Positions 17,259 to 58,648 of a stretch of 64,000 bases of DNA are shown piece after piece. Origin of the DNA: Haliclystus octoradiatus (taxonomy: Eukaryota > Cnidaria > Staurozoa > Stauromedusae > Haliclystidae); NCBI GenBank assembly GCA_916610825.1, contig OU744448.1, positions 3,573,465 through 3,637,464 of the forward strand, written 5' to 3'. How positions within the stretch are numbered: the first letter of the stretch is position 1; every line of letters begins with the position of its first letter. Below the pieces are notes generated by a model. It was not told the DNA's origin. It worked only from the letters and a program-made list of their open reading frames with translations, and did not search any database. Made by a program: the position numbers and the translations under genes.

Positions 17259-17475
17259 TTAGCATATTATTATAAAACTAAGAACAGCTACAAGTCTTTT
17301 TATACTTAGTAAACAATGATGTTCTTAATATCATACTTATGTCTGTCGATCAACTCTATTCATATTGTCGGCGCAAGTCAAAGAATGTGCCATGAGAAAG
17401 GCAACAAAAATGATTTTAAGGGAAGAATATTCCTCGGACAACGAATTACGAATGATTTTATTAACGGCCATCTGA

Positions 17476-18309
17476 CCCCTAGGTTATACGCCGTACTTTC
17501 GAGAGGCGATCCATCAAAAATAGATCGGCACGCCTGAAAGTACGGCGTATAATCTGGCAAAGTACGGCGATTTATTTTTGGGTCGACCCAAAATCGAAAG
17601 TACGGCTGATCCAGGCGTACCAAACTGAAAACAGCCGTACCGGTACGCCTGAAAAAGCAGTTGGAATATACGCCGTACTTTCGTGAGGCGTACCATTTCG
17701 AATGTGGAATGTTTTCGTCATTTCCAGGGGGTTTCTGTATGAATTTCTTATTGTTTCCTGCCTGTTGCTAAGTAACCGTGGTTAGTAATCGTATCACAAC
17801 AATAGCAGTGGTGTAGTATTACGTTTTAAATTCAAATAAATGAATAAACTACTGTTGTGATCACATTTGAGTATTCTAGTTGCCATTTTTATATTTCATC
17901 ATGATTTTATCGAAAGCAAATAATCTATATATCAATGATATATTATTTTTGAGCACTTTAAATATGAAAAATATATTTAGTATGAAGATAATATAATCTT
18001 GAGCATCGTGTTTGTAAACCAAACATATTTTAGTGGTTTTGTAAATACGCGTATGTCGACAAATAATAATTTGCAGTAAAAACTTTGCAGATTTCGAATT
18101 AAAAAGTCTTCCTATTACGGATTCTCAGAACAGAAATGTCACAGCTCTTCTCACAGGAAGCGGTAAAGTTCAAACAAAAATCAAGTGGTACGCCATTTTT
18201 GGATCGGCGTATAATCCCACTTTTGTAATTTTTTGTGTTTGGTCGAATTGGTACGGCGTACCAAAAAAAGTTGGTACGGCTCTCGAAAGTACGGCGTATA
18301 ACCTAGGGG
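17476..18309. mobile_element. Non-autonomous DNA transposon, copy 2 (834 bp), inside gene A exon 1
   Basis: Nearly identical to the element at 16428-17258, with the same perfect terminal repeats and few substitutions. It is flanked by TGA at 17473-17475 and 18310-18312. It sits inside the coding sequence of gene A between codons for HL and the LPTF region. Near-identity of the two copies, about 1 kb apart, indicates recent activity. Confidence 0.92.
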
Positions 18310-18491
18310 TGAGTTTGCCAACGTTTGCTGAATGTGAGGATAGATGTTCAGTGACTGATTGGTGTTATGCAATGAGCTATAACCACAAAACATCTAACGT
18401 TTTGGGGAAGAACTGTTTAATGAGTGGAAATTCTGCTATCAGGGAGAAACTCAACTCGGATTCTGCTTTCACTACTATATTCTTTTCTTGG

Positions 18492-20566: not shown

Positions 20567-20734
20567 GAGGAAAACAACAGCACCCAAGTTTACGGTAAGT
20601 GTTGATCATCCTCATTATCATAGGCGAGCAGATTCAAATGAGTAATTACCAAGACACAAATCAATTTCATTATAAACTTGTCAATGACATTTATCAAAAG
20701 TATTGTAATCCAAATGTGGGAAGAGAGAGTCTGG

Positions 20735-21131: not shown

Positions 21132-21896
21132 TCCTGGACTGTTTTATGATAATCCCAAATATTAATTGCTCATCAATTTCATTGTCAAACATACAATCAT
21201 ATCACAGTGGTATACTGATATACATAATTCCGATAAGCAAATCAATTACAAAATAAATAATAAATAAAACAAAGAAATTTTACCAAATCATATAAGAAGA
21301 AGTAGCACATCACTGTAACAATGTTATTATGCTTTCATTTAATTTTTTTTATTATTTATTCTATAATTTTGCATGAGTCATGACTATAACATCATTTCAG
21401 GCTTTTCCTCTCTGTTCTACACGGTTTTATCTTTTTTATGATAGGACACATGACTTTGAATGATGCTTGTAATAACCTCGATAGTGATCGTGATTCGCTT
21501 GTTGTAACAGAAATGAAAATACCGAAAAACGTGAGGCTTTTAAAATGGATCATAAAAACTGGTAGAAGCGGGACTGGAGCCTTGTTAGTTGTTCAAAGAA
21601 GTTCAATGTCCACTTTCAAAATTCTCCATCAGACTGATTACTCCCTCGTTGCTGGGACACATGAACTATTTATTAACGATAACAGTTTTGTGACACCTTC
21701 AAATGCGTTGATCGCTTTTTCTAATGTTGGCCGTGGGTGTATTATTGGGTGTTTCAATCTTGTGGATTCACAACAAATTACCCAGTTTGGTTTAACAGGG
21801 GATGAGCATATCGGATCAACAATACCCTATTCGTCTAAGACTTTTTCTGGTGAAAGGATGTACCACGTTGCATTAAAAGTGACAAATAATCAATGA

Positions 21897-23569
21897 AGAT
21901 ATCGACAAAACGTCTATTGGCATTGTAAGCACTATTTGATTCAATAATTTCAAAAAGTCCTATATATAATCATGTACATTCATTTTTTGTTCTAAAAGCA
22001 TTCGGTGTTTGAAGTAAACTATTTAAAATATTTCATATTAATTTCATTTTGTAATTGAACTTTATTCTTTCATTGTTTTAATATATTATATACTATACGT
22101 ATCACACATATCACACAACGCCATTAAGTATTTCTATGTAGTTTATACCGCATAACAATTTTATTATTAGTCTGAGTTCTGAAGAATATATAGTTGAATA
22201 AACAAAATATTGATTGATGAAAGATGCATAGACATATTCAATATCAAAGAAATATCTAATACACATAAAATACCTTTCTCCTTTTTTGTAAATATGAAAA
22301 ATAAGAAATCATTGACTGTAAGCGATAATTTCTGATATTTCATTCCACACAATTCGTTTATTTATAAATTCCTTGGAAGTCATTCCTAAATCGTGCTATG
22401 TATAGAATCTGTCCCATAACAGTGCAGTCACAATGTCAGTTAGTGTTAGTATTGAATTTACACAGAAAGAACAGAAAAGAAAATACTGTAAAGATTTTAA
22501 ATACATTATGTAATTAATTGATTGTTTATTGTAACATAAAGCCCTGGGCAAACGACGGAAACTTTTGGGCAACAAATATGTTTTTGTCTGACGTGTGTTT
22601 TTCGTGTTCTGAAGCAGTCTTATCAAGAGCGGCTATACAGACCAGACTTTCACAAGACTTTTCTAGAAAAACTCAGACTGAACTTACAAAGAAGCCATGA
22701 AATGACCACAAGAACGAAAGGGTTCGAATAGGATAACGAAGGCCTTCGATAACAAACATCCTTGGATTGACTTGGAAAATGTTTCATGGCCATCAAACAC
22801 GATGCGACAAATAATATACACGATGCAAGACGTCAGACAAAATCGAAAGAGTGGCTAAACGACAAGGATTTTCGAAGGATTTAAAAGTCGCGCAAATGTT
22901 GTCGTCGTTTGCCCAGGGCTTAACAGGTTAATTTTTTAATTTTAATGTTAATCTCTTTTTAATTTAAAATGGAATTCTCAGCACATTCAGTATATATCAT
23001 CATTATTAACACTGACAGAATTATTGATTACTCAACATTTATTATTGCCTTAAAAAACTGTCTCTATTTATTGGTCGTCTTTATACCGTCCAAAACATTT
23101 GTTATCAATTATTCTTCAAAGTACACTCACAATAAGTAAATTTGGCGTTTATATTACTTTTAAACGTTAGTCCTTGACGGAAGGCACTTCTATGAATCAT
23201 TCAGATACACATCATATTTCGAAAAATGATCCATTCGGATTGGAAATTAATAACACATTCTAAAAGCATAACAATGCGTTGTTAAATATCCAAATCGTCA
23301 AAATCGACGTGCCGATATGACAGGAAGAAGTTTTCTATTTTTGATTTAATAAATCCCATGATGGGAAGTATTCAGCTAATCCCATGATTTTCATAATATG
23401 AAGTATTTTATAAGCTATTTTTGAATTAAAACCATCGGCAATTTTCATTCATTACATCAGAGTTCTATAAACATTAATATTTCTATAATATCTGCACGGC
23501 ATAAGACATGAATAAATTAAAGTTCATTGTTTAAATTAAACTAAATTCGTAACACGTTCAATGCACGTA
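21897..23569. other. Intergenic between gene A and the exon-1 relic
   Basis: Contains the 3' flank of gene A (AATAAA at 22197-22202) and a MITE at 22540-22920. The rest is AT-rich with nothing that I can support. Confidence 0.5.
22540..22920. mobile_element. MITE, 381 bp, with TAA target duplication
   Basis: The ends AGCCCTGGGCAAACGACG and CGTCGTTTGCCCAGGGCT are inverted repeats, flanked by TAA on both sides (22537-22539, 22921-22923), as in PIF/Harbinger-type elements. No gene inside. A truncated relative lies at 49237-49490. Confidence 0.85.
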
Positions 23570-23635
23570 ATGTGCGATAAGAAAGGCAATCGTGTTGATT
23601 TTAGAGGAAGGGTATTCCTCTCAGAACGAATTACA
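23570..23635 (+). pseudogene. Relic of a fifth PAN-family exon 1
   Basis: 22 codons translate as MCDKKGNRVDF then RGRVFLSERIT. This aligns with the start of the mature part of gene A exon 1 (MCHEKGNKNDF, KGRIFLGQRIT). No signal peptide precedes it. The frame stops soon after (GTATGAG), where homology is lost, and a reversed SINE begins at 23680. No later part of a gene copy is seen before gene B at 24684. It appears to be the remains of another tandem copy, deleted apart from this piece. Confidence 0.8.
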
Positions 23636-23679
23636 GTATGAGCATGCAGTCGCATTTTTAAGATTACATTAAAAGTAAT

Positions 23680-24683: not shown

Positions 24684-27600
24684 ATGGATTTTGTTTTACA
24701 TTTATTATTCCAACTTTTTATTACATATTTTGTTGATGCAAATGTCAATATATGCCTAGAGAAAGGTAACATAAGCGATTTCAGAGCAAGGATATTCTCA
24801 GGAAAAAGAATAATCGATAATTTTGTTTTGAATCGACAACTGGTTTCCACATTTAAAGAGTGCGACGGTTTATGTTATGTAAGAAATTGGTGTTTTGCAG
24901 TAAGTTATTATCACAAAGCTTTGCCTGGCCAAAGTAATTGTCTTTTGAGTGGAATTAAGTCTTTAAATCAATATTCCGAGCATAATAATGCATTTACAAC
25001 ATCATTCTTTCTTTGGGTAAGTAATACAACTGATTATCATCTTCACCTTTGAAGAACTAAACTTGGTATTATAACAGCAAATTTATGCAAATTTATTAGA
25101 GATATTGATGCTAGTTATTCAAACTATCGATATACTTAAAAATATACAGTGTAACCCGCTTATGTGCAATTCGGATAAGTGAAATTCCCGCTTATCTGCA
25201 ACCTGGCTTTGAAACCCGTTACACAATTTTCTGGTCAAGTCCATGGTGAACGATTTCGGATAACTGCAAATTCATATACATACAATTAAAACCGTTGGCA
25301 ATTTTGACTTGCACTTAAGCGGGTTACACTGTAGAACGAATTCTGATAATTTGGCTAGAAATACATTTGTCTACAAATTTTGTTTTGAAATACTGCATAC
25401 AAATGTTCATGTTATTAATTATAGCCATGGTAAAGAATTGTGAATTTTTATCACACGGCATAATTTTCATTCAAAGCGATTTCGAGCGATGTCAGTAATA
25501 TCATACATCTGTTAACAGTACAGTGTAACTCGCTTAAGTGCACGTAAAAATTGTCAAAGGTTTTCATTGCATTTATCCGAATTTGCGGTTATCCGAAATT
25601 GTTTACCAAGGGCTTGAACAAATAATAATTTATAGGGTTTCAAAGCTAGATTGCAGATAAACGGGAATTCCCCTTATCCGAAATGCACTTAAGCGGGTTA
25701 CACTGTAGTAAGCAACATATCAAGCATAAATGTGATGTTGATATTTTGTGCAGCTGTTCTCCTTTCAAATGATCAACATTTTATTGAAATTTGTTAAGAT
25801 TACTGGTACAAACGTTACTATTAGTTACAACGCTACATTTCCATTCAAAATATGATGTCCCCGACTGGCGATTTTTATTCTCAAAAGATCCGATGTCAAA
25901 CGATGCTCGATTTTAAAAAATCCTAATGCATTAGCGAATAACAACAGTGTATAAAGGCCAATGTGTTAAGTCTTAATGGTCCTATAGAAGATTAGAAATA
26001 GAGATAGAGAGTTATGATCCTATAAAAATCAAAGAAACGTCACTTGATTCAAGATCTACGATTCACGACGTGTAAAACAAGATTGTTTGGCTATCCGGTA
26101 GACAAAGCTAATACATCATCAAAGTGACGATAGCTTTGATACAGAACAACTAGGGATTTTCACATTAGCATTTTTAATAATTCTTATTTCTTTCACACTA
26201 AAAATATAATGTGATAAAAGACTATGGATTTGCCAGAAATGCATTATATTTTCAAAGTAAACGATTTTTTGATAAAACAGTTTAGAAAAATCGTTTTCAT
26301 AGACTTTTTTTTATAGAAGTGGCATAACAACTTTAAATAAAATATTTTAAAGAATACTTATCCTCATATTCATCTGCTTGCTATTGCCATGCGCATGTAA
26401 AAAATAAACTAATCCGGGATCAACCAAAGTTTGTTTCCACACTGCAGCTAATCCAGCTCGAACCCAATGAGGCTAGGATCGAACCCATCTCATGAAGGTG
26501 GGCTAAAAGTCTCAAAACTAACCCAATTTAAGGTATATAACCCGGGTTAGTTGCATTCCCATAGCCTTTGCTTTGAATCAGGTTAACATTAACCCAAGCT
26601 AGTCTGTCTAGTATGAGAGGGGAATATGTATTCACGAAAAATTGGGTTTTCGAACATCATATCTTTACTCTAACGTTAAGTTAGCTATCATATGAACAGT
26701 GACATTACCTGTGCCTGTATAAGATCAGATTGTAATTCCGAATAATTGTGAATTTTCAGGATGAACAACCTTTCATGCAAAAATATGGTGAGTTCAGCAA
26801 ATATATATATATTTACAATATTGATCACCAACCTCACGTGTGTGTATCAAGTAATTTTACAAAAGCTACGGGGATCGTGCAGTTTCTGTGGCAGCGCCGT
26901 TATTATATTTTGCTCTTGAATTCTTAGGGCATTCAGTGTTTTCCCCCAAGTTGCAAGTGTTAGGTCTACAGTTCGACATCAATCGATTGTGCATTCACAA
27001 GGAACATCTCCAGATAAAACGATTGAAAAACGCAATAAAATCATGTTGATATATTACATAAACATAAAATCAAGTTTAAAAACTGCAAACCTTGGTTTGA
27101 GCTACGAGAAAACATCCAAGTTTCGTTCGAGCCAGCGTTTTATTAAAAAGTGTAAGAATATTCGATAGTTTATAAACTTTATTAAGCAGGCACATCTCCT
27201 GATAAAACGAATTAAATACCCATAAAAGCATGTTGATATTTTAAATAAAATTAGGATTGAGCTCAAAACCTTCAAACCTTTGGCTAAAATACTACGAACA
27301 AAAACACTTACAAAACGAGCAAAGTGTAACTGCTTGGAGCTTTGAAAAGACGTTTGAAAAGTATTTTGCTCTTTAACAAGTTTTATCATGATATAAGTCA
27401 CCAAATAATTTCATAAATTAGGCAATTAGAGCAATCCCTGCATAGATCCTACAAACGTCACAGCTGCTTGGCTGTGATTGGTTGTTTCATTTTTCCAAAG
27501 TGAGTACATCACTTTTTCACTTAAAGTTTACATGTCCCCATAAGTGAAGGTCAACTGGCTGGTCAGCCGCAGTTAAAGTGCTGCACAGGTCTATTACGTC

Positions 27601-31999: not shown

Positions 32000-32058
<59 letters not shown>

Positions 32059-33997
32059 GACGGTGTCGCCCTACCGAAGGCACCCGTACCACTCTTCTAT
32101 TTCTAGATGAGTGGCTTTTTTCGCTGAGAGCAATGATTTTAAACGCTCTTTGTTGATCTCAGCCGCGACACTGCAGATCAATTTCAACAGATTTCATGGC
32201 AGACAGGTCTCGATTGTCAATGCGCAACGATGAGCCGCAGCTACTCACAATGCAATTCCCTCTGGATCATTCCATCCACCATCCTCAGATGGCACTCATT
32301 TGATGTTTCAGATAAAGACAAGGCTGAGTTGACCTTAAGGGGATTCGAACCACAGTCGATCAGATATGATCCGATCTGAAGTTCGGTTGCTCTGCCATCT
32401 GAGCTAATCCACCTAGGCTTGATGATTTCAGAATTGCTATGTAGAATGGTGCACCCAAGATATTTTGCATCATTGCAGACAGGAAGTACAATTCCGACAT
32501 TGCCCAAAACGGATAATATTCTGCAGTCTCTGATGTCCATCATTTCAGTCTCCGATTGATTTACATCTAATCTAACGGCGTGTGAAGCTTTGTCGAATCT
32601 TGAGAATTGTCTTCGTACATATTCTATGTTGTTAGATATAAGGGCGGTGTCTTCGGCGTACTTTAGAGTAGGAAGTTTAACTTCCGCATTTCTACGCCTC
32701 ACGGTGAATGCATCGTCTGACTTGAAAGAAATTCTCATTACATAGTCCATCGCAAGGAAGAATAAAAGTGGAGCCAGTGTGTCTCCCTGTAGAACGCCAG
32801 ACGATGTCAGGAAGGTATTGGTGTTTCCTGACGGAGTACGAACGTACGCTTTTGTGTTGGTATACATTGACATAATTTCGTTAACGATAGAGGGGGAGGA
32901 CCATACAACGAAAGAATATTTTCAAGGTCAATTGGATCGACGCTATCAAATGCCTCAGCATATAGTCAATGAAAACCAAAACTGCACTTTCCTTGCATGT
33001 AATACAGCTTTCAATTATCAGGCTTTGAAGTAACACCTCGTATACAAGTATTAAGGAACACCTCGACATTGATTTTCTCAACCATTTCAAATGATCAAAC
33101 AGAACATTATTCGATAGATAGCTGCAAACAGTTGTACTTAACCCGCTTATTTTTTTCGAACTTTTCCTTTGCTTTGTTTAACAAAAGAAAATGATATTAT
33201 TCACACTGATTTGTTTCGCTTTTCCAAGTAAATATGATTTACCCTATACGTGTAGACTGATATCTACCAAATGCACTTTCACGTTTACACTTTCGTTAAG
33301 ATAGGTTTTAGTCTGCACGCAGGCTTCCATGCTTGCAACATACTTCGTTGCTTCGCGATTCAATTGTTTTACATTTTCAAGAAGGTGGTCAATTAATTGA
33401 ACCAATATTATCCCAGCAGAGCGGACAAAGCATATCTAGTTATTTAGAAATTTTAACTATATTTTAATATTAGAAAAGTACCTCATTTTTATATAAAATC
33501 TTTTCATATATTCTGTTGATTTAGGAGATTTCGCTATGGATCGCATTTGCAATGGTGCTTTGAGCAGCGATACAGCTCACGACATGATAATAATAACTTC
33601 AATTAAAATCCCAGAAAGAGCTAACCTATTGAAATGGATGATATTTATTCGTCATCAAGGTGTTGGCTCCTTACTCCTGGTAAAAAAGCACTCGAATAAT
33701 TCATTCACAATTATTCATCGTTCTAATTATGACGAAAGCTTAGAAGTTGGATCGCATCGGTTGCATATTGATAACTATGGTTTTGTGACCCCAACTGGCA
33801 CTTACATTGCCATTATTAACAATGGGATAGGATCGATTGAATATTGTGATGAAAGTTCATTGGGTGAATCGTCTGAAGTAACAATATACGATTTGAAAAC
33901 AAATGAAAACATTGGATCAACAGTGACTTATGATCAAGTCAAATATACAGGCAGACGAAGATATCGAGTTGGAATTTTAGTAGAATATCATTCATAA
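24684..33997 (+). CDS. Gene B: PAN/apple-like secreted protein, 277 aa
   Basis: Exons 24684-25016, 26760-26787 (28 nt) and 33525-33997, with GTAAGT and GTGAGT donors. The ATG gives a signal peptide (MDFVLHLLFQLFITYFVDA). The PAN/apple-like module has cysteines at residues 24, 60, 64, 70 and 86 (KECDGLC, NWCFAVSY, SNCLLSG), and the exon ends FFLW. The micro-exon encodes DEQPFMQKY. Exon 3 encodes GDFAMDRICNG, then the unrecognised beta-rich domain with LLKWMIF, GSLLLVKK, YDESLEVGSHRL, GFVTP and IEYCDESS. PAN modules bind proteins or carbohydrates outside cells, so a secreted recognition role is plausible, but it is inferred. Intron 2 is 6.7 kb because it has collected LINE and SINE insertions. 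Full length, no premature stops. Confidence 0.82.
25147..25331. mobile_element. 185-bp TA-flanked MITE, copy 1
   Basis: The ends CAGTGTAACCCGCTTATGTG and its counterpart CACTTAAGCGGGTTACACTG form inverted repeats, flanked by TA. This is typical of non-autonomous Tc1/mariner or pogo-type elements. In intron 1 of gene B. Confidence 0.85.
25521..25705. mobile_element. 185-bp TA-flanked MITE, copy 2
   Basis: Same length and ends as the copy at 25147 (CAGTGTAACTCGCTTAAGTG ... AAGCGGGTTACACTG), TA on both sides, 190 bp downstream of it. The interior differs clearly, so these are two separate insertions or an old duplication. Confidence 0.85.
28720..29060 (-). mobile_element. MITE inserted into one arm of a direct repeat
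   Basis: Starts AGCCTGCGTTACAGACCGCG and runs to about CAATTCACACATACC. It is the reverse of most of the element at 55277-55635. It interrupts one copy of a short direct repeat: the flanks (AATGTATTTTATAGGCTT ... ATTGGATACGCAAAATTCG) occur joined at about 29222-29323. That gives the empty site and shows the end of the insertion. Confidence 0.7.
29876..30420. repeat. Degenerate tandem repeat, period about 103 bp
   Basis: Five or six units each carry TATATAGACCACCTGTCTTT, then TCTAGATCT(T/G)ATAGCTAGCTG, a CTGTATCA block and (T)ATCTAATATATA. The units have diverged and the third is incomplete. It is a minisatellite-like array inside intron 2 of gene B. Confidence 0.75.
31600..33090 (-). mobile_element. 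RTE-like LINE fragment, interrupted by a SINE
   Basis: Minus-strand reverse-transcriptase fragment. In order it has a frameshifted upstream part with FIDY (32900-33090), then SGVLQGDTLAPLLFFLAMDY and LKYAEDTAL at 32241-32873, and KYLGCTILHS. After the SINE (32004-32412) comes a C-terminal part with HLFRACIESILFYG and HALGIHYPN (about 31646-31930). The catalytic YADD is changed to YAED. Dead copy with at least one frameshift. The GDTLAP motif fits RTE-related LINEs, though I do not fix the clade. Confidence 0.8.
32004..32412 (-). repeat. tRNA-derived SINE, copy 3, with (TA)n tail and 11-bp target duplication
   Basis: Reversed SINE (body from 32056) with a long (TA)n tract (about 32004-32055) at its 3' end. 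The sequence CTAGGCTTGAT flanks it on both sides (31993-32003 and 32413-32423), the target-site duplication expected for LINE-mended retroposition. It splits the RTE-like LINE, so it is younger than that LINE. Confidence 0.9.
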
Positions 33998-35982: not shown

Positions 35983-38900
35983 ATGGAACTCATTATGTTT
36001 ATACTGTTGCAATGGTGCTTGGGAATCTCGTTTGTAAGTACAAATGAAATTTATGGAAAATGTTCAGAGAAAAGCAACAAAGAAGATTTTAAGGCAAGAA
36101 TTTTCCTAGGAACACGAATTATGGATCATTTTGTTGATTTCTCTTCATGTTATTCAACATTTGCTCAATGCGAACGTGTTTGTCAATCATCAAGTCGGTG
36201 TTTAGCAATGAGCTATGATCATAAATCTACTTCTGTTCAAAGCAATTGCCTTTTGAGTAAAAATACTGCCTTAAAGAAATATGTATTGGCAAATAATGGT
36301 TTCACTACGTTATTTTTCCTTTGGGTAAGTAACTGTTTAGGATTGTAACACACTTAATCTATCTTGAGCTCATATTCGAAGTGTACAAAACATTGTTAAA
36401 ACCCTTGGTTCGAACATTGAACAAAACAAATACATGAAAACAGTGCAATCTATATTTTTATCGGCATTTACTAAGTAATGAATAACAAAGGAATACATCA
36501 CAATTGTTGTGATTGTTATGGATAAAATTCATAAATGATCTGGCTATGTCGTCTATGGCGTCAATTGGCCTATGGCTTCAATGGGCCACGTGAAACTGTT
36601 TAATGTTTTTTTGTATTTTACTATGGCTTCGATGGGCCACCCATGGACATTTTTTTTAACTTTGGTGTCAATGGGCCAATAAGGTTTTTTTTTTTACTAT
36701 GGAGTCAATGCCAGGCCAACAAGTTATTTTTTTTATTTTTTTTAATAATAAAAGGAAACATGAGAATAAAAAACGCTGTGGCTTCAATGGACCATCATAC
36801 TCTTGTGAGTGAGTTAGTGAAATTGATATTTCGGTGACCCACAAACAAGAGTGATGTAGCCATTTAAATAATCATGTATTATAGCCTTTGTCTCGAACAT
36901 CAATTATCTCTAATCAATTCCACGCAAACAATGATTTCCGTGCAAACAATGGACGTTCATGGAACTCTCCGTGAACGTTTATTTTCGTCCATCCACCCTG
37001 GACGTTCAGTGAACATTCACCGTGAACGCCCGTGGCATTCTTGAAATGGTTATTCCAATCGGACATTTCTCGAACCTTTAGAGAACTGAAACATTATATC
37101 AAGATATTACACCTTCACGGGAAAGTTTTTAGAACGCATTCAAAAATCGTAATTCCAAAAATCCTACCAACCAATAAATATAGTAAATAGTGAAGAAACA
37201 GTATATAGATAAATCTGAATAAGCGGTCGATTGATCCAGCAGACAAAATTGCGTTGAAATGACATAAGAAATTAAATAATAAATATAGAATAATAAATAA
37301 TTAATTTTTATGAATTGTTTCTGTAGAAAATCAATGACTGTGTATTACTTACAAAACTTGAAATGTGATGTTTCACAAATTAATTAAAAGTTTCTTTGTA
37401 AAACATTTCAAAGCAAAAGATAGCCAAATAATGGAATTTTTGTAGCTATCTTTTGCTTTGAAATGTTTCACAAATTAGAATGAAAAAAGTAGATCGAGAT
37501 GCCAGGTTTGGTATTCGTATTTTCGACTAAGATGATTTACGTGGATGAGTCAATATCAAATCATCGCTTCCTTCTACGCGTATTATTAAATTGATTTTCC
37601 ATATTTTCTTGGACAGAGATTTCGAAACGTCAGGCTAGTTGATTAGCTACTTGAGATCTTGAGCAAATGAGCATCAGATTATTCTAACATTACAAACTAT
37701 ATTTCCTTCTCATACTTTGTAGATTGTCAAAATAGATTGATCTGAGTTTCATTTTACGAACTGTTTATAAAGAATAATTATCAGCAAAGCTATGTAGAAG
37801 ATTTCCTCCATGTAGGTTGCAGCTATATATGATATTGCACTGGTTCAATATACTGTTATTTGAGTCGTTAATCAATGGCGAAACAAGGAGGAATAACAAA
37901 CGTAAGACAGTTGGAACAATAAACAGCTCTCTGCCTATATTTATGAATAAATTACCTTTTGTCATAATGTGCTGATATACCTATGCTACAAATATATTAT
38001 TACCTTGAAGAACTTTGCTTCGGGTATTCTTTGTAAGGATAAGGATTATTTTAGCTCAAAACACTCTGCAAACTTCTTCTTTAAAAAATAATGGGAAAAG
38101 ACCCGCATCAACCTTTTTGACATGTCATTATATGCTCTGATTCGCTAGACTCTTCTCTTGCCATGACAACAGTGTTGAAAACGTGGCTCACGGGAAATTC
38201 CAATTGCTGGAAAAAAATAATGGAGCATCTCTTGTTTTCACTCTGCGATTATAATAAATGATGCATGATTACAAAGAAAAAAGAGGGTAAATACTGTAAC
38301 AGTTTACAAAATATATTTTGAGATAAGAACTAACATTTGTTATTTCCAATCATGAGCTTTTCGATCTTCAACCTACAAAGAAACATGTAAACAAAACTCG
38401 TTAGTATGATTTGTAAAAAAACTCTTCTTTGAGGCATTTTTGAATAAATTAGCTTGATTGTTGATTTAAAGTGTGCTGCGAAAATTTATTAATAAATTTG
38501 ATTTATATTAAGCACTTCATTAATAATATTCTCTTTTTTGAGTTATACCTTGGTTTTACCTTGAACTGCGACAAGTTTAATAACTTTTCAATAAATAATA
38601 TCAAAAGTACTTTGTGATTAACAATTTCAATTTGGAAAGTTTAAAAAAAGGAACAGCTAAGGAGCTGCCACATTTAGATGTAACAATTGTTTGTATGAAT
38701 TTCATTCAAATTGTATTTTAAGCCTGGTTCCCATATAGCAAATTTGTCTGCGTCGTTGCCTGCGACATTTGCCCGTGTCACATCCGTAGACATTTAATGA
38801 TCTTTTTATATTGTTTCGACCGGATATTGTTCGTCATGCCTTGTTGATTTCAAAGTTGGAGTGAATTCAACTTTGAAATGACGCAGGCAAGACTAGTAAT

Positions 38901-41587
38901 ATCGGGTCGAAACAATAGAAAAAAGATCATTAAATGTCTACGGCTGTGACGCGGGTAAATTTTTGAAAAAAATGAATGACCAATCAAATTAGAAAACAAT
39001 AACTGTTATGGTGAAATTGATGATAGATAATTCAAAAGAAAAGTTGATGTTCAAGACAAAAGTTATCTCACACGATTATTATAATGAATACATCATTCTT
39101 GTTCGTGTGTCAGCGGAATTTAGACGTAGTCGCTCTCTAACAACAAACTGGTCGGTCTAAATTCCGGTAACAAACAGATGTAATCTTTGAAAAAACTACT
39201 GTTTAAAAAGGTGTCATATAATGACACTTACAAAGCTGAGAGAATTAAATTAAAATGTCAAGCAAATTAAGCCCGGGGGGGTAACTTAAGAAATTTCAGG
39301 GACGGGGAATGCCAATTTGAATTCAGAATTTTACCTACCCCCCAAAATTCTGTTTTTCCAAAACTGATACCTCAAATATTTTATTCAGGCCAAAATGTAT
39401 ACCGCAAATATTTTTTATCCAAGCAAATTTATTACAGTTTCGTGGGTTTACATCAACATTTTTGCTCATTGAAAAACAATCCCTCGAATATTTTGAAAAT
39501 TCTGAAATAGATACCTCAAAAATTTTCGGAGATCGTGAAAAGGTACCCTCAATAATTGGCACGTCCCCGTATACCAACCATTTGAAGTTACCCCCGGGGA
39601 AATTAAGACATTTATTTCTGCAAGATCAAGGATTCAAGGTCATAGAATCATTCAATATTGAATATAGCCATGATATTTATGCAATAAGCAGTATTATTGT
39701 GATTGTATTGACTGTATTATTTGTATCATTTTCTAATCATACAATCGAGGTTATCTATATTAAATAGAAGGGTTGCTTGTAAAGTAAGAAATTATGTACC
39801 ATGTTATTTAGTATTATATATAATGAGCTAACAAACATTCTTCAACAAATAACATGTATTTATAAAACTTTGCTTTATTTCAGGATGAAAGGTATTTCAC
39901 TAAGAGATATGGTAAGTAGTTAAATTGTGAAGTATTTAGAAGTTATGGAATGGAATACCTTTTTGAAGTTGGAAGGGGAAAAGCAATCATTTGATGATTT
40001 TCATCCATTCAAATCAACAATAACATCACAGAATTAATTTTAGCAAACCTTATTGACACTCTACTCAAATAAGTAGTAATTGAGCCGTTACCACACTACC
40101 GGAGCCACCCAAACCACTTCTCTATTTCTTGATTAGTTGCTCTTTTCGCTGTGAACAATAATGAATCTCAGCCGACACTGCAAATCAATTTTAACAGTTT
40201 TCATGGCAGATTGGCTTAGATTGTCAATACACAACGATGCGCTGCAACTACTGACAATGGATTTCCATATGGAAGCAGAGCTTTCTAAATATATCTGGCA
40301 AGCCAAAGGCAACAAATTTTAAAGCATCAAAAATTATCGTGATCAAGCATATATAAATGTAATAAGAATTGATGGATGTTTATTCAATCATAATAACATT
40401 TACTCATAAAAAAAATTTCCAATGATAGCTTTGAAATGCTACATGATCAGGTCATTCCGTAAGCGCTAAAGCATGTTTGTTTGGTAGACCTTATAGGCTC
40501 ACATAAAACAGGAAATAAATTGATAAGCTATAAAATATTTGAAATCAAATTGAAACTGAACGTATTTGAATTTAAATTTTCAATACAGTGGTAGATTATA
40601 TTAATCAAAGGAAAGGATAATAACTTGAGGCAAGTAGCCTAGAGAAGAATAATGTATATGGTTGGTAAGGATTAGTAGAACATTCCTTCCAGCAAATGTA
40701 GCAGTCTGTAATTGTACATGTGTCATACAATCCAAACCTATCAAAACCATGACTGGAAACGGTGGTGTAACTGTAACTTGTCTATGTGTAATGTTTGAAT
40801 AATAAATTACATCTAGTTCAGCCGTCGTTGGTAGCATTAATCTAGGTACCATTATCCTGTTAATTCCAGGATAATGCTACCCAAAATTTGATTTGATTTT
40901 TTTCACTGTTCCTAAAGTTTCAAACTTCTCCAGAAAATCGAAAAAGAATCCAACAAAAGTTTCAGAATCTGAAATTTCTTACCCACGAAGTACTTTTCTC
41001 AGCAGAAATATGGACTGCGAAAGGTGGCACCTCATAAAGTAGCCAGCATAAAGAAGTTACCCCCACGCACCTGGGACCGGATGACAACGATTCTAAATCT
41101 GATTCTTATTATTCAAATTGTAGGGCAAAAAACAATGGATCGAGTATGTCGCACAGGATTGGTATCCGATTCCGCTCAAAATATGATAAGCGTAACGAAG
41201 CACGAGGTCCCAATCAATGCCAAGCCCTTTAAATGGATTATAACTATAAAAGAGAGAGGAAATGGAATGTTGATGCTTGTTCAAAAGATTTCTGATACAT
41301 CATTTAGAATTCTCAAAAAGTATAATTATGATAGCTCTCTTGGACAGGGATCTCATGAGGTTGCTATTGACGACAATGGATTTGTTACGCCCCCTAAAAC
41401 CTTCATTGCTATTGTCAATCATGGTAAAGGATCAATTGAAGGATGTTTTGACGTTCCAACTGAACCCACAGTTTCACATTTCTATTTGAAAGGTTTCGAA
41501 TCTGTTGGATCTATAGCCACATACGAGAAGGCTGATCATATAACAAGGAGATGGTATAAAGTTAGCATTATTGTAAAATTTGATTAG
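35983..41587 (+). CDS. Gene C: PAN/apple-like secreted protein, 277 aa
   Basis: Exons 35983-36324, 39884-39911 (28 nt) and 41124-41587. Signal peptide MELIMFILLQWCLGISFVST, then the five-cysteine PAN-like module (YGKCSEKS, AQCERVCQSSSRCLAMSY, SNCLLSK), ending FFLW before GTAAGT. The micro-exon encodes DERYFTKRY. Exon 3 encodes GQKTMDRVCRTG, KPFKWIITIKERGNGMLMLV, SLGQGSHEVAIDDNGFVTP, NHGKGSIEGCF and, at the end, RRWYKVSIIVKFD. The cysteines in DRVC and EGCF are probably paired, because both are missing together in gene D. Same coding length as gene B although exons 1 and 3 differ by 9 nt in opposite directions. Intact. The end of intron 2 carries a G-run MITE remnant that runs almost to the acceptor of exon 3. 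Confidence 0.83.
36541..36830. repeat. Imperfect tandem repeat, ATGG(C/A)(T/G)TCAATGGGCCA units
   Basis: Five or so units with a core TGGCTTCAATGGGCCA alternate with T-rich spacers (TTTTTTTTTTACTATGG). Spacing is about 50-70 bp. Degenerate minisatellite in intron 1 of gene C. Confidence 0.65.
37401..37468. other. Perfect 24-bp hairpin (loop 20 nt)
   Basis: The sequence at 37401-37424 (AAACATTTCAAAG...) is the exact reverse complement of 37445-37468, separated by 20 nt. The size fits a microRNA precursor, but a perfect stem is as expected of a tiny fold-back transposon or a recent inverted duplication. Located in intron 1 of gene C. Confidence 0.5.
38738..38957. mobile_element. Fold-back MITE of about 220 bp
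   Basis: Arms with GTAGACATTTAATGATCTTT and ATTGTTTCGACC are mirrored by GGTCGAAACAAT and AAAGATCATTAAATGTCTAC. The outer parts (GACATTTGCCCGTGTCAC / TGTGACGCGGGTAAATTT) are also inverted. An inner smaller palindrome (TTCAAAGTTGGAGTGAATTC) forms the loop. No gene. Confidence 0.75.
39271..39599. mobile_element. MITE with G-run/C-run ends, diverged relative
   Basis: Begins GCCCGGGGGGGTAACTTAAG and ends TTTGAAGTTACCCCCGGGG. It contains GGCACGTCCCCGTATACCAA, matching the complement of the GGGGACGTGCC block of the family. Lies in intron 1 of gene C, 285 bp before the micro-exon. Confidence 0.7.
40083..40262 (-). repeat. SINE relic, reversed, partial
   Basis: Diverged reversed piece of the 6889 family: the tail (CCACTTCTCTATTTCTTGAT), the middle block (CGACACTGCAAATCAATTTT) and GATTGTCAATACACAACGATG are recognisable, while the tRNA-like head is missing. 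In intron 2 of gene C. Confidence 0.65.
40880..41065. mobile_element. MITE remnant next to exon 3 of gene C
   Basis: Only the right half of the G-run family is left: AAAGGTGGCACCTCATAAAG and AAGAAGTTACCCCCACGCAC. It ends about 60 bp before the exon 3 acceptor of gene C. Confidence 0.5.
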
Positions 41588-43217: not shown

Positions 43218-44370
43218 TAAATAGCTTAAATTTTTTTAAATCTTAATTATTGAATAGAAAACAAATTGTTAATGTAAATAGTGTAAATTCAAATTTAGGT
43301 GTAATTAAATACGGAGTTCCTCAAGGGTCAATCCTTGGGCCGCTACTCTTTCTTATTTATATAAATGATATTTGTAACTCTGTAAATAACTGTAAAATAA
43401 ATCTATATGCAGATGATACGCTTTTGTATGTAGCCCGTAAAGATTTGAAAGACGTTGAAGAAATTTTACAGTCAGAACTGATTGAAATACATGCCTGGCT
43501 GTGTGCAAATAAACTAACATTAAATATAAATAAAACTAACTGCATGGTGATAGGCTCCAGGCCAAAACTTAATAAACAAGAACACGTCGATTTAATAATA
43601 AAGCTGGATGACAAACCTGTCGAAAGAGTAGATCTTTTAAAATACCTAGGCATTCTAATAGACAATACCCTATCTTTCGACAAACATGTCATAGCAATTA
43701 ATAAGAAAATCAATAGAAGCTTGGGCGTTTTGAAATACGTGAGACGCTTCATACCGCAAGAAGCAGCTAGAACTATTTATAACACCATTGTTTTGCCACA
43801 CTTTGACTACTGCGCTGTCGTATGGGGGAACTGTAAAACCGAACATCTAGATCGCCTCCAGAGATTGCAAAACAGAGGAATGAGGACAGTGCTCCGTTGT
43901 AACTATCGCACTCGTGTCTCTGATATGCAAAGTCAACTAGGTTGGCTTTCTGTTAGAGACAGAATAACATCGCATCAACTAATGTTCACTCATAAAATTA
44001 AATTCAAACTAGTTCCTCCTTTGCTTTCCGACTTTTTCCAACTGCCGTATTCCACCAGAACAAGATCTCACGCCCACAATGACATTTACATCAAGTCGAG
44101 CCATCGTCATTCATTTCAAGACGCTGGTGCGCATAAGTGGAACGATCTACCGTCTGCAATGAAGGAAGTCCAAAGCAGGCCTACTTTCAAATGTCTCCTT
44201 GAGAAGCACTTACGTTCTTAGTATACTTTACACTTACCACTCTTTCCTGTTATTTATGCCTGTTTTTTTACTTAATGTCTGTTTTCCTGTCGACTTAGCT
44301 ATATATCAGTCCTTTGAAAAAAAGTTTGTATAACTTAAAGGTTCTGAATAAATGATGATGATGATGATGA
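43218..44370 (+). mobile_element. 5'-truncated CR1/L2-like LINE with intact reverse-transcriptase C-terminal half
   Basis: An open frame of about 323 codons (43250-44221) starts inside the reverse-transcriptase domain. YGVPQGSILGPLLFLIYIND is near residue 20 and the catalytic YADDT near residue 60. Then come LKYLGI, the C-terminal block VLPHFDYCAVVWGNC and RLQRLQNRG, and at the end RPTFKCLLEKHL. The 3' untranslated part ends in an (ATG)n tract (44350-44370), as in L2/CR1-type elements. The N-terminal endonuclease and the first reverse-transcriptase motifs are missing (5' truncation). No stop or frameshift in the remaining part, so the insertion is young. The flanks share GGTT. Confidence 0.9.
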
Positions 44371-48554: not shown

Positions 48555-51500
48555 ATGTTTATCATACTATACTTGCTTGCTGTGTTATGTTTAGAGAGTT
48601 TTACAGAAGCAAGCATTGGCATTTGCTCGCAGGAAGCAAACAAGAACAATTTTACAGCAAGAATTATCCTTGGTACACGAATTATTAATGACTTTGTTAA
48701 AATTTCTGAATATCGCTCAACGCTGGCTGAATGTGAACGTTGGTGTATATCAAAAGTTTGGTGTTTTGCAATCAGTTATAATCATAAGAGTGCTGGTAAT
48801 CAAGCAAATTGCCTTTTGAGCAAAAATACTGCAATTAAGAGATTTTCTATACCAAATCATTCCTTCACTACATTATTTTTTCTTTGGGTAAGTATATATT
48901 GTGATGCAGTTAATTATTTTTAATGAAACCTCGAATACTGATCTACGTAAAATAATGAAATAATAATAATAATAATGACTACATATAATGAAAGTCACGA
49001 AAAAATAGAAGTCGCATACGGTCATCTTAAAGTCATGAGGTATAGGAATAATTTGAAACTTTTCCCGTTTATCTATTATTTCTTCTTATTATAGTAGGAA
49101 ATGACTCGATAGGAAGTAGGGAATTATTTTTATAAAACAATACTGATTACATATTTTGTTTTCAGCATTCTTGAATGATAAGGATTTACATGAAATTTGT
49201 TGAACGATTTTTACATGTCGCACTTGTTAACTATAAAGCCCTGGGCAAACGACGGCAAATTTCACGCAACAAATCTGTTTTAGTCTGACGTGTGTTTTTC
49301 GTGTTTTGAAGCAGTCTTTTCAGAAGTGGTTAAACGACAAAGATTTTCTCAAGACTTTTCTAGAAAAAGTCAGATTGAGTTTAAAAATAAGCCATGGAGA
49401 AGCAACGACATCGAAAAAGTTCGATACATTTCGAACAAAATGGTTCGAAAAGAATAACGAAGACGTTCGATAAAAAATCCTTGGAAAGACAATTTTTAAT
49501 GTAGTTGGATTTTTTACGCTAATTTAAGATTATAATTATAACCATTTTAAAACTCTTGAAAATTCAAGTTTTAGTGGCAATATCCTACACAGGGAATTCC
49601 ATGATCTAGAGTGGATGTATTTTCTTGATTCGAGAATGTTTCGGATGAAAGAAGCAAAAGATTAAAAAAACATTTACTTAAGAAAAGAACTTGGCACATT
49701 CTTGCTTCAAGCAAATAGTGTTGATATTAAGAAAATATTTTAAAAGTAGAGGTTGTTTGCTATTAAGAAGCATTATTATTAATGGCAAGTTTTTTCTAAC
49801 GTTTTCTTGCTTCCTATTGGTTAATCGAACACCAACAATTCCTAGTGTCTTCGAACGTGACGTAATAATCTGAGACAATAGGGTAGAGCTCTAGACAATT
49901 AGGTCGCGACAATTAACAATTATCGAACGAGATTGAGCACGACACTGAGAATTATCAGGCCGAGGCGCGTGTTATCCGCCGAAGCCGTAGGCTGAGGCGG
50001 ATAACACGCGCCGAGGCCTGATAATTCTCAGTGTCATGCGAAATCGAGTTTGATAATTGTTTTATTATAAATCCATACCTTTATTAATCCCATGAAAGAT
50101 TCAAGAACATCTGCGTTTTGAGAAATATTACGAATTCATCGCAACAAGTTTGTTTAATTATATCTTCATAATTTTGAGACTTTAACGCTATCAACTTGAT
50201 TAGATGAAGACTTCTTTGCATTTCGTTGTCCTCTTTCTAATTATTCGCACCTTTTTTATAATAAACTTATTGTATAAAAATCTGTATTGTAGTAAATCTT
50301 TATTTTGAAAAATCAAAAATTTGTAAAAAAGAGTGTTTCTATCACGTCAGTCTTGAAGGCTTGGAGATGCTATTGTCTCGACGTATTATCGCGACCTAAT
50401 TGTCTCGAGCTCTACCCTATTGTCTCCGATTGTTACGTCATGTTCGAAGACACTAGGAATTGTCGGTGTTCGATTAACCAATAGGAAGCAAGAAAACGTT
50501 CGAAAAAACTTGCCATTAATAATAATTCTCAGTGTCGTGCTCAATCTCGTTCGATAATTGTTAATTATATACTATGTATAGTTATTACAGTATTATAATA
50601 TCTTGCTATCATACCTATAATACATATATTGTCCATCAGTAGTGTTGCTTATCATCTTCAAATCCTTTTATTATCTTTTTGCATTTTTAGGATGAACGAT
50701 ACTTCTTAAAAGAATACGGTGAGTTTTCATATATGTGTGCCAATTATTCACTTTGGTATAATTATGCTTTTTCATTATCATTTATATATATTCATATAAT
50801 AATGATATAATATTATTAATAGTGGGATTGTTTCGCGCCAGTTCTTGGTATAGTGCTCAATGAAATTAATCAGAGCATTTATATAAATTGAGAGTCAAAA
50901 ATGAAACATTCTAGATTTCCTCTTCTTCAAGTTTCACACCTGAAGGTTATCATCAGGCGATTTATTTCAACTATCCTACAAAAAACATCAACATATAACA
51001 ACAACATCAACTGGTCAATATTAGCAATCAGTGCAGCCTACAACAAAACCTCAAAAAAATGTAACCTATGCCTAACCGAAAAATATCACATTATAACCTA
51101 CAAGAAAGACAACCTACTCAACAGAAGATCGGAATTGATTTCCAAATGCCGCCACGAGAAAAAATTTTATCTCATTAATCTGAAGACATCGTAAGAACTA
51201 AAACCGGAATTTTATACGATAGCCATAATTAAATAAACAATAGCATAGTCAATAGCCAATCAACTGTAAAACTTAGTAGCTCATATAGGATAGGGATGAA
51301 TTTTTGTAGGATAGTTGAAATAAATCGCTAGATGATCACCTTCTGGTGTGAAACTAGAAGTAGCGGAAACCTAGAATGTTTCATTTTTGAATCTCATTTT
51401 ATATATATTCATATAACAAGAGACAAAGGTAAGGCAGAACCTTGATTCGTTACTCGGTGTTTCACGCGTTTTATTGAACGTTTAAATGGCACGCGTTTAA

Positions 51501-54500: not shown

Positions 54501-57500
54501 TGCTACTCAACAGAACGTCATACACTGTTCCATAAAGAATATCCCAAAGTTAACCGTGGCGATAATGAAACATCAATAAATCAGGTTGCACTAACCTCAA
54601 TTTATATTTCAGCTGAACAGAGGGGAGAGAATTCTAGCAATAAAAACATCTCACTCTGCACTGCTGTTGGTGAATTAAAACTCGTACAGACATGTGGAAA
54701 GACCCTACTTGCTGAAGTAATCCATCCAACCAATCCAAGCAACATCCTAGAAGGTTATGCTATTTTGGATGAACAATCAACATCGTCCCTTTCAGATCCA
54801 ACTTCATTTGAACACTTTGGTGCAGAATCGACGCTTCATTGCATATCTCTATCTACACTTGGCACCAAAACACAGTAACATGACAGACGGATATCTGGTC
54901 TAAATATAAAAGGAAAATTAGAAATTAAGACTTATCATCCCCAAGCCTTAATGAGATATCAGAAATGCCAGGCACGATTGATGAAGTTGTATCGCCTGAA
55001 ATAGTTACACAATATGCACATTTGAAACATTTGGTGTCCAAAATTCCAAAAGTAGAAAAAGATGTTCCTGTCCTGCTGTTATTAGGACTCGACAGTGGCG
55101 CAATAATGAAACCGCTAGAAGTTGTCAATACTTAAGAACTGTTTGGAAATCACACAACTCTAGGGTGAGCAGTTGTTGGTTCTGTTAGCAACGAAAACAG
55201 CAAAAGACCAATATGCCTGTTCTACATACATCAGAAATATGTCATCCTTACTTTACAGCAAAGTCGCAGTCTCCAATAGCCTGCTTTACAGACCGCAATT
55301 CATTCACGAAAGAATAGATTGTGTGTGAATTGCTCGGTTTCTCTGTGCGGGCCTCGTATCAGAATAAGATTGATGTCACATAATTATGCAAGATTAAGGT
55401 GATTCTCAACGGGATTCTCACATTACTTTGTTTACTTCAGTTGACATGATTGCAATAAGTTCTATTTTGGGCTTCGTAGCTATGACAATTAATTTATCGA
55501 ACAAATTTATCGGTTAACCATGCATCGATCAGAAACTTCGGCTCTACGTTTTAGAAAAGTGGCTAGACAGAGAACTGCGCAAATCACACAGACCCTGTTC
55601 TTTTGTAAATGAATCGCGGTCTGTAACGCAGACTAAGTCTCGTGTCATCTGCCGTCGCCTTAGAGGAAAACTAGAAACTCAACTAATGGCAGACCCGCCG
55701 CCAGATCGTTTAGAGCCTGCTCCGCCATTCACAAACGTTGGACTCGATGTATTTGGATATTTCAAATTTCGATATGGTACTGCTACACGAAGGTCTGGCG
55801 GAGAGAAAAAAGTATGGGTAGTACTCTCTACATCTCTTTCAAGCGGATCAATCGATTTGGAATTAATGGATGGGATGAATGCACCTACATTTAGGAATGC
55901 TCTGCGTCGCATCCTTGAATTCGAGTTAAAGGAGCACTTTTTTGGAGTGATTGCGGTACAAATTTTATTAGCTCCAAGAATGATGAAATTAAGGCTTCAG
56001 TATACTAATACTATATTGAAGAAATGCAAGAAATTCTACAAGATAAAAATAGCGACCGGATTCGAGGACCATTTTGGAGGAGTCTGGGAAAGGAATATTG
56101 GGTCAGTACGAAACGTTTTACATGGTACACTCCAAATGACTTGTCGGGCGTCTTCTTACCATAGATGAATTACACATCTTGTTAGTCGAATCAGCCGCAA
56201 TAGTTAATTACACTCCACTGTGGGAAGTTTCTGGTGACCCAGAAGCCCCACAACCTTTATGTCCAGCGATGATCTTAACCCTCCGAGAAGATATTCCTCA
56301 TCCTCCGCCTATTGGCCTTTTTGACAAAAAAATCTTCTAGAATCTGGATGGAAGTCATGGAGAAGAGTCTACTATTTAGCCGATCACTTTTGGGACAGAT
56401 GGGGGCTGAATGCTTTTGATTTTAGGCATCCACTGCAGAGCCATCTATTTACAAGAGTTGGGACACGCTTTCATGTGCCGCTATCGTCTCCTATTGGACA
56501 GATGCCATTCACGTGATTTTTTGGACGCCATTTTCGTTCTGTCGGCACCAGGGTTCTTGTTCTTTTGGCGCCAGGTTTCCTGTTTTAAGCGAAGCGCGCG
56601 GAAAAATACAACTTTTATCAGTGAAAACAAACATAGGCTATTAAATTATTAATTGTTGTGATAATAGGCACAATAGTAATCGAAATAAAAGTATTGTTTA
56701 CTATTCCAACTGGGGACAAGAATTAGAAAAAGTTGTCTTTGACTGCAAAGAATAAGCGTAAGAGCGTAAGAGATACTCTTTTAACTCTACAAACTCCTTG
56801 TCCATTTAGCAATTCCAATAGCATTGATCTGATTTACTCTTGAGCAATATGCTGATGCGATCAATAACATAGTATACATTGAAATAAATTTGTATTCTAA
56901 TTTTGAGAGTCCAGCAAATAAATATGGAGAAAGACAACTCATAAATGTTTATATTACTCCTGCTAAACAATCGCAAACCATTTCACAGAGTTCCAAAATG
57001 GCTGAAAAAACACAACATTCTCTTGCACATGCGCACTGCTGTTGAAAACGTGCTTGGGTCCAGGCCAAAAAAATAAATGGCATCAGTGTCCCAACTCTTG
57101 TAAATAGATGGCTCTGATCCACTGCAGGTGCAGAAGTGCAGCAGAGCCAGCGAGAAAGAGAACCGAAAGAAAATTAGCATAGGTCAGCGTTGCAATATAC
57201 ATGACTGTGAAATGGATACAAAACAACTTATGCCAAGCCAGATACATATTTTTCATTTTTGCATATTTTACAAAGTAGACCATAACTTATCTATTTCTTA
57301 AATCAGTAAATTTCAGAGTTCAGATTTTTGAATATGTAATGAGTTTGACAAAATCGAGGTATCAAAATCAATTTTTCATTAGTTGACCATTTGAGAAAAT
57401 AATGCAGATTTCTGCTATCCACTGAGATTGTATAGGCAGCTAAATATTTACTAATGATTTAATGATTCAATGATTTAATGATAATAATTTCAATTTACTA

Positions 57501-58648
57501 ATGCATATATTTTACTAATGAGTCTATATTTATAAAAACTAAAACCCGCTGTGAGCCGTTTGAGCCTCAGCCTCCGGGCTCAGCCTGCAATCCAAGATGA
57601 TTAAAGTCTTATTTTTATAATTGTAAAAGTTGGTGGTTTATTTGCTGTAATTATTTGCACACTTTTCTTTCCATTTACGTGTATAACGGCAATATAATAT
57701 TTTCCAAGCACCAGTAATATTTGTTTGAAAATACCATTGTACAATGTCTTTCAAACCATGGGGGGGGGGTAACTCCACTATGACGGCTATACGGGGACGT
57801 GCCACTTTTTTTGGGTCCATGTTCAAGCTGAGAAAATCTTTTTGGGTATGAGATTTCAAATTTTGGAGATGCTGGGTATCCTTTTTTTGACTTTTTCAAA
57901 AATTTTGAAAAAATGTTGCATCATTTTTGTGTATTTACTTAAAATCAATCAACCTGCTAGAACTTTTTGGGTAGCATCAACAGAGTTTTTGGAACTTTTT
58001 GGGTACTTTACTATTTTCCAAAGTGGCACCACTCCGTCCCTAAAGAGCTGGAGTTACCCCTCCCAGGCTTCAAATTTGAGACTGAATTAAAAATATTTTA
58101 TATGTCTATACCCGTGACTCCAGCGATTTATACAGTTCTTTGTGTTTCGATGTAAGTTGGTTGCAGGTGATCTAACAGTGGCCAACAGTAATAATAATAC
58201 TGCCGACTTTGAAGTGGATACTACAGAATATCTCATCAGCATAACTGAAAAGAAAATACCACCAAATGTGAAACCATTCAAATGGCTAGTAGCAATAAAG
58301 GAGATTGGAGATGGAGCATTGGTACTTGTTCAAAAGTTTCCAGCAACAAATTCATTCAAAATCATTCATCGATATGATTATGATACATCCCTTACGGTTG
58401 GTTTACATGAAATAGTTATTGATGACATCGGATTTGTGACACCTCCTGAAACTTACATCGGTCTGGTAAATTATGGAAAAGGATCAGTTGCTGGTTGGTT
58501 TTATGGTAACCACTCTAATAACAAAGCGGTACAACAGTTTTTCTTGTATGGATATGAGTCTTTAGATTCAATGTTTTCGTTATCAGAAGTACATTGGGAT
58601 AGCGAGCGATGGTACCAAGTTGGCCTGACAGTAAAGTATGAGCCGTAA
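48555..58648 (+). CDS. Gene D: PAN/apple-like secreted protein, 280 aa
   Basis: Exons 48555-48887, 50691-50718 (28 nt) and 58167-58648. Signal peptide MFIILYLLAVLCLESFTEA, then the PAN-like module with cysteine at residue 24 and AECERWCISKVWCFAISY, ANCLLSKN, FFLW at the donor. The micro-exon encodes DERYFLKEY, close to gene C. Exon 3 starts GDLTVANSNNNTADF and keeps KPFKWLVAIKE, GALVLVQKF, GFVTP, NYGKGSV and RWYQVGLTVKYE. Both cysteines found in exon 3 of A-C are gone (AGWF replaces GCF, and there is no Cys near the start), while the PAN cysteines remain. Intron 2 is 7.4 kb and carries a BEL/Pao relic, a Mutator-like element and a G-run MITE that ends 100 bp before exon 3. Intact frame. Confidence 0.82.
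49237..49490 (+). mobile_element. Truncated copy of the 22540 MITE
   Basis: Left end AGCCCTGGGCAAACGACGGC after TAA, with the shared block GTCTGACGTGTGTTTTTCGTG. The right end is missing. In intron 1 of gene D. Confidence 0.75.
49779..50522. mobile_element. Long inverted-repeat element with an inner hairpin
   Basis: The arms 49779-49913 and about 50385-50522 are inverted copies (AATGGCAAGTTTTTTC, TAATCGAACACCAACAATTC, AGGGTAGAGCTC). Inside the left half, 49912-50060 is a second palindrome (CACTGAGAATTATCAGGCC around a GAAGCCGTAGGCTGAGGC loop). A related GAATTATTATTAATGGC / CTCAGTGTCGTGCTCAATC stretch follows the right arm. Nested fold-back DNA in intron 1 of gene D, just before the micro-exon. 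Confidence 0.75.
50886..51402 (+). mobile_element. Inverted-repeat element carrying a retroelement-like C-terminal fragment
   Basis: Arms of about 98 bp at about 50886-50988 and 51301-51402 are inverted copies (ATGAAACATTCTAGATTTCC, GTTTCACACCTGAAGGTTAT, TTATTTCAACTATCCTACAAA). Between them a frame (50901-51194) reads INWSILAISAAYNKTSKKC, NLCLTEKYHII, LLNRRSELISKCRHEKKFYL. I recall this LNRR-(S/N)EL-CRH pattern from C-terminal ends of retroelement proteins in cnidarians and other invertebrates, possibly Penelope-type, so the attribution is tentative. The inverted flanks are consistent with Penelope-like terminal repeats or a MITE that picked up the fragment. Confidence 0.55.
51770..52721. mobile_element. 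952-bp Mutator-like non-autonomous element
   Basis: The terminal inverted repeats are about 75 bp: TAGCCGGCTCGCAGACTCAC ... to TGCTTTTGCC, and the right end reads CTGCGAGCAGGCTA. GGCGATCAT is repeated directly on both sides (51761-51769 and 52722-52730), a 9-bp target duplication as made by Mutator-type transposases. There is no transposase. Internal open frames at 51844-52053 and 52166-52357 are short and unrecognised. The insertion target looks like the end of another fold-back element (CGATCATCAG). Confidence 0.8.
52722..53690. other. AT-rich part of intron 2 of gene D
   Basis: Sequence between the Mutator-like element and the BEL/Pao relic. I see no exon or inverted repeat that I can support. 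Confidence 0.4.
53700..56400 (+). mobile_element. Decayed BEL/Pao retrotransposon relic
   Basis: Pieces of a BEL/Pao polyprotein appear in order on the + strand but in different frames with stops. A protease-side segment is at about 54530-55130 (with short readable blocks such as LCTAVGELKLVQTCGKTLLA). The integrase is at about 55640-56340, including GLDVFG, NALRRIL, WEVSGDPEAPQPL and LTLREDIPHPPP. The reverse transcriptase is not recognised and is probably deleted. No LTRs found. A MITE (55277-55635) is inserted between the segments. It is a long-dead element, described only as a remnant. Confidence 0.8.
55277..55635. mobile_element. MITE inside the BEL/Pao relic
   Basis: The ends TAGCCTGCTTTACAGACCGC and GCGGTCTGTAACGCAGACTA are inverted repeats. 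Reverse of the element at 28720-29060. It separates the protease and integrase pieces of the BEL/Pao relic, so it is younger than that insertion. Confidence 0.8.
56432..57123. mobile_element. Element with 36-bp inverted ends
   Basis: CCACTGCAGAGCCATCTATT at 56432 and its complement ...AAATAGATGGCTCTGATCCACTGCAG near 57123 are inverted ends, both followed inward by ACAAGAGTTGGGACAC. The interior (about 620 bp) has no recognised gene. It immediately follows the BEL/Pao integrase relic. Confidence 0.6.
57760..58066. mobile_element. MITE with G-run/C-run ends, copy 4
   Basis: Begins GGGGGGGGGTAACTCCACTA, contains ACGGGGACGTGCCACTTTTT, ends GAGCTGGAGTTACCCCTCCC. Close to the copies at 10640 and 45855. 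It ends 100 bp before the exon 3 acceptor of gene D. Confidence 0.8.

Follow-up and report, generated by a model that had tools for sequence, protein, structure and literature searches.

On balance, we consider that a tandem of four genes in the stalked jellyfish Haliclystus octoradiatus (Cnidaria, Staurozoa), here designated A to D, encodes secreted two-domain proteins in which the domain of the last exon most likely binds glycans, and that these genes are part of a family whose last exon is exchangeable. By sequence comparison, they are a small side branch of a much larger, genome-wide family. To our knowledge, stalked jellyfish have been little studied at the molecular level, and the titles and opening lines of the abstracts listed on staurozoan and cnidarian PAN domains, lectins and expansions, on Nematostella and on Haliclystus lectins contained nothing on this family. 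For the assembly, jrHalOcto1.1, the published figures are 261,898,343 bp in 33 scaffolds, the longest of 39,977,743, with an N50 of 28,991,210 and an N90 of 20,733,292 (PMC9975415). Our searches covered 261,861,806 bases in 33 contigs; the window, meaning the whole stretch of 64,000 nucleotides that was analysed, is C4:3573465-3637464. Going by size, C4 (35,873,919) corresponds to chromosome 3 of that assembly and C10 to chromosome 8.

Gene models and the PAN-related front exon

The features of the window are listed below, with signal peptides assessed by eye and hence presumed.

17316-17475, + strand: gene A exon 1, 5' piece; covers the presumed signal peptide and the beginning of the PAN-like module (exon-1 profile, E 1.3e-9)
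17476-18309, no strand assigned: inverted-repeat element in gene A exon 1; 834 bp with terminal inverted repeats
18310-18491, + strand: gene A exon 1, 3' piece; remainder of the PAN-like module, ending FFSW (exon-1 profile, E 1.3e-17)
20567-20594, + strand: gene A micro-exon, 28 nt (shuffle test)
21445-21896, + strand: gene A last exon; beta-sandwich domain, related to the last exons of B to D
23549-23635, + strand: truncated relic of a further PAN-like exon 1, between A and B (exon-1 profile, E 1.3e-4)
24684-25016, + strand: gene B exon 1, ending FFLW in phase 0; presumed signal peptide and PAN-like module
26760-26787, + strand: gene B micro-exon, 28 nt (shuffle test)
33525-33997, + strand: gene B last exon, 473 nt; protein search matches to the other copies
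35983-36324, + strand: gene C exon 1, ending FFLW in phase 0
39884-39911, + strand: gene C micro-exon, 28 nt (shuffle test)
41124-41587, + strand: gene C last exon, 464 nt; domain used for the structure model
48555-48887, + strand: gene D exon 1, ending FFLW in phase 0
50691-50718, + strand: gene D micro-exon, 28 nt (shuffle test)
58167-58648, + strand: gene D last exon, 482 nt; protein search match

The sequence-only reading had proposed four three-exon genes of a single layout, in tandem and all on the forward strand. The coordinates agree with this arrangement and for B, C and D the layout is exact: the junctions 25016/26760 and 26787/33525 hold to the base, the predicted products have the stated 277, 277 and 280 aa, and the last exons lie within the range given, 452-482 nt. 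Gene A departs from the layout in that its exon 1 is split by the 834-bp element, and by our arithmetic the 272 aa claimed for its product fit only with the element omitted, an omission that the sequence-only reading does not mention. The motif FVTP occurs in all four genes and exon 1 ends in the expected FF(L/S)W throughout, whereas the five cysteines attributed to exon 1 are present in B and D but number six in C, counted past the presumed signal peptide.

For the 28-nt micro-exon, all open candidates of the form [CT]AG-28-GT[AG] in the introns (three in A, five in B, one in C and seven in D) were compared, with 300 dinucleotide-preserving shuffles of the introns as the null. The best-matching set was the proposed one; likeness among B, C and D scored 90 against a shuffle maximum of 21 and was reached in none of the 300 shuffles, while the four micro-exons jointly scored 123 against a maximum of 22. 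Likeness among the micro-exons is thus far above chance, and this element of the proposed structure stands. The last exons are clearly related, a search with that of gene B returning C, A and D (E 2.7e-34, 1.2e-24 and 7.1e-24 respectively), and the large coding divergence noted previously is borne out, with pairwise identities of 36-44% among the four last exons, 43-53% among the first exons of B, C and D, and 36-54% over all comparisons.

Two reverse-transcriptase fragments (PF00078) lie among these genes, one inside intron 2 of gene B (32241-32921, - strand) and one between C and D (43247-44221, + strand). Elsewhere in the window, a 125-aa frame open from stop to stop (1877-2254) contains several cysteines and matches nothing in Pfam at E 0.01. 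Scanning the window for tRNAs and Rfam families gave no matches.

Exon 1 had been described as PAN-like. The Pfam gathering cut-off for PAN (PF00024) is 21.4 bits, and the exons of B, C and D fall below it at 18.6, 19.7 and 19.1 bits; the description holds through their homologues, two of which exceed the cut-off, namely an exon on contig C2 (L021, 31.5 bits, PAN_1) and one on C10 (L081, 24.9 bits). With D as the query, the C2 exon was recovered at E 6.1e-5, under the name L013 but at the location of L021. A wider exon-1 profile, which includes B to D themselves, matched these three at E 9.7e-31 to 5.6e-29 and L081 at only E 0.0043, and among weak matches of an exon-1 profile to the PDB four of five were plasma kallikrein. 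Position after a presumed signal peptide is also as in PAN/apple proteins; the low scores of B to D, and the odd number of cysteines in exon 1 of B and D, are not. Overall, the data fit a diverged, PAN-related module.

A family with several kinds of last exon

A last exon of the A-D type was found at nine places in the genome: the four genes of the window, two on C1, two on C10 and one on C8. Those on C1 are at 15100266-15100721, whose 5-kb upstream region showed no PAN exon, and at 15140357-15140797, with an internal TAG. One of the C10 copies has a PAN exon (24.9 bits), a 28-nt micro-exon with good acceptor and donor, and a last exon in the same phase, so the gene plan is not peculiar to the A-D tandem. 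The front exon is far more widespread, since a C2 PAN exon as query gave at least 150 genome matches at E <= 0.01, 150 being as many of the 274 candidates as were scored.

In a large sister set, the domain of the last exon is related in sequence and fold to AJLec (PDB 6a56), a galactose lectin of Anthopleura japonica that heads the structure list for a model of this domain, itself a beta-sandwich. An AJLec-type domain lies downstream in 28 of the 35 best PAN-exon matches. The calcium ligands of AJLec are incompletely kept. Of 24 domains fetched, 11 were used, and among these E141 is retained in eight, D150 in three (N in seven) and N151 in ten, while cysteines 48 and 61 are both present in all 11. 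PAN/apple domains are not mentioned in the text of the AJLec paper. In two places, C10:6605976-6946909 and C2:36158173-36203492, AJLec-type domains stand in series and score the same or almost the same, as if they arose from recent tandem duplication.

We examined the 7-8 kb downstream of five further relatives (L052 to L056). L052 and L054 have a 25-nt micro-exon common to both and an AJLec-type last exon, which in L052 appears frame-shifted; L055 is followed by an AJLec-type domain and L053 by an AbfB domain (PF05270), while neither an AJLec-type nor an A-D domain was found in the 7 kb behind L056. No micro-exon could be picked for L055 or L056, the 28-nt candidates of the latter having poor pyrimidine tracts. 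Where it is readable, the shared plan is a phase-0 front exon, a micro-exon of 25-28 nt and a phase-1 last exon, and three types of last exon stand behind related front exons: AJLec-type, AbfB-type and A-D type. The pairing of PAN exons with last domains is based on distance, and splicing between them is predicted.

On contig C5, PAN exons and AbfB domains succeed one another on one strand in a single cluster (C5:10304286-10353599), in which one AbfB domain has an in-frame TAG. The PAN exon preceding that copy (L015) grouped with B, C and D in a small tree with support of 95/98; the AbfB domain itself differs in sequence from that of A-D. The rows of that tree, 23 in all, were B, C and D, L015, L081 and 18 of the 30 loci from the C2-exon search. 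Of its 20 inner branches 13 are weak, and L081 and L015 sit on long branches, so the grouping may be artefactual. A direct search with L015 matched many other PAN exons before C and D of the window, and direct searches do not place this PAN exon especially near B to D. By eye, six of the eight AbfB matches lack a PAN exon within 25 kb, among the matches listed.

Predicted fold and putative ligand of the last-exon domain

The C-terminal domain of A-D had gone unrecognised in the sequence-only reading, and profile searches agree. The last exons of the window have no significant match in Pfam and only a chance-level match in NCBIfam; the best PHROGs match of the domain is at E 0.041, and its profile found nothing significant among PDB sequences, where only 5vmk appeared, at E 5. 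In protein searches, full-length gene C matched none of 125 candidates at E <= 10, an alignment of the domain none of 1152 at E <= 1 and a wider alignment none of 967 at E <= 1, results that say little about other cnidarians.

The structure model of the domain, taken from the last exon of gene C, is confident and is a beta-sandwich. Foldseek gave nothing at E <= 1e-3; its top rows by E-value were an uncharacterised Thermotoga protein, a PHR domain, a plant cysteine oxidase and PirA. The best model-normalised TM-score among the 50 rows listed is 0.58, and within those rows only chains of Cwp84, a protein with a lectin-like domain, exceed 0.5. The nearest structures include lectin-like domains, carbohydrate-binding domains and domains from phages, and other folds follow closely. 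Cwp84 (PDB 4ci7, 4d59) is bacterial and shares 8-12% identity, and the beta-sandwiches of phage baseplates and capsids belong to a phage context unlike that of A-D. The beta-sandwich is a widespread fold, and fold alone reveals no function. Our preference for glycan binding draws on two things, that both other types of last exon behind related front exons are sugar-binding types, and that this fold is so used elsewhere.

The products of A-D would be secreted, each consisting of a diverged PAN module that may serve in assembly, a nine-residue linker supplied by the 28-nt micro-exon, and a beta-sandwich that would bind glycans. Across the family, the front cassette of exon 1 and micro-exon would be kept while the last exon varies between an AJLec-type calcium lectin, AbfB and the A-D domain. 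Such proteins might recognise microbial or other foreign glycans, mucus or algal surfaces. Several results weigh against parts of this proposal: the fold is common and the Foldseek matches fall short of E 1e-3, A-D have no sequence relation to the AJLec-type domains, one of the five relatives examined (L056) has no recognised last exon, direct searches do not single out the AbfB gene as a close relative of A-D, and 111 of 149 PAN exons lack an AJLec-type domain within 25 kb, among the matches listed.

The same genes could instead carry a beta-sandwich that binds protein, or that acts as a structural or oligomerising unit of matrix, mucus or capsule wall. We regard this as a serious but somewhat unlikely alternative. 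The jelly-roll is generic, with PHR, Eph receptor and SUN domains also matched by the model, no sugar site is recognisable in the A-D domain, and the PDB matches of exon 1, weak as they are, go mostly to plasma kallikrein; yet the two companion types of last exon are sugar-binding, and Cwp84 is the sole entry above TM 0.5 in the rows listed.

A reading of the A-D domain as an AJLec-type lectin that has diverged to an extreme, a single exon having evolved beyond recognition, is improbable. Gene position and phases are the same, size is similar and both models are beta-sandwiches, but hhalign of the two domains gave a probability of 0.2%, that is, no sequence relation; a search of the window with an AJLec-type profile came back empty at E 0.05; and 6a56, which heads the list for the AJLec-type model, is missing from the 50 rows listed for A-D, an absence that is no proof. 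AJLec-type domains fill the last exon of the large sister set. Between exchange of last exons by exon shuffling and divergence beyond recognition, exchange seems the likelier, since the exon boundaries, phase 0 and phase 1, are common to genes whose three types of domain are unlike.

Gene A, selection and a proposed recognition repertoire

Gene A is interrupted by a mobile element and is not intact here. The element has inverted ends (CCCCTAGG...CCTAGGGG) and is flanked by a 3-bp duplication, TGA; a second copy of 831 bp, 97% identical and with the duplication TTA, lies just upstream of the gene at 16428-17258, the two being 217 bp apart. As it stands, the reading frame continues into the inserted sequence, where it meets a stop after 73 codons; otherwise the gene is recognisable, the two later exons as well as the two pieces of exon 1. 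That the element is spliced out as an intron and gene A still expressed is quite improbable: close to its ends there are four GT-AG pairs that would leave an open frame, in one case with a product just two residues longer than the 272 aa, but the donor (AG/GTTATA) and acceptor contexts look poor and a disrupted allele is the simplest reading. At the relic exon between A and B, the wider exon-1 profile gave no match.

The family had been likened to rapidly changing recognition or immune genes. Rapid change is not supported by pN/pS, which is 0.44-0.67 and thus never reaches 1 in any of the nine comparisons, of which six concern exon 3 and three exon 1, so that selection on A-D is purifying on average; positive selection is correspondingly unsupported as an average. 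With dS ranging from 0.93 to undefined, the low pN/pS indicates copies that are old and, on average, constrained. It is scarcely credible that A-D are decaying copies rather than expressed genes. The interruption of gene A and the neighbouring relic exon would fit decay, but the frames of B, C and D are uninterrupted, their splice sites are kept, and pN/pS is below 1 in every comparison.

Returning to glycan binding and exchangeable last exons, a broader reading, which we advance tentatively, is that a fixed, secreted cassette of PAN module and micro-exon placed before interchangeable, unrelated glycan-binding domains of at least three types forms a large modular recognition repertoire, and that the last exon of A-D represents a new lectin family. 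If so, an early-branching animal would build its recognition repertoire by exon exchange, and the A-D domain would be a new kind of lectin whose ligand is readily testable.
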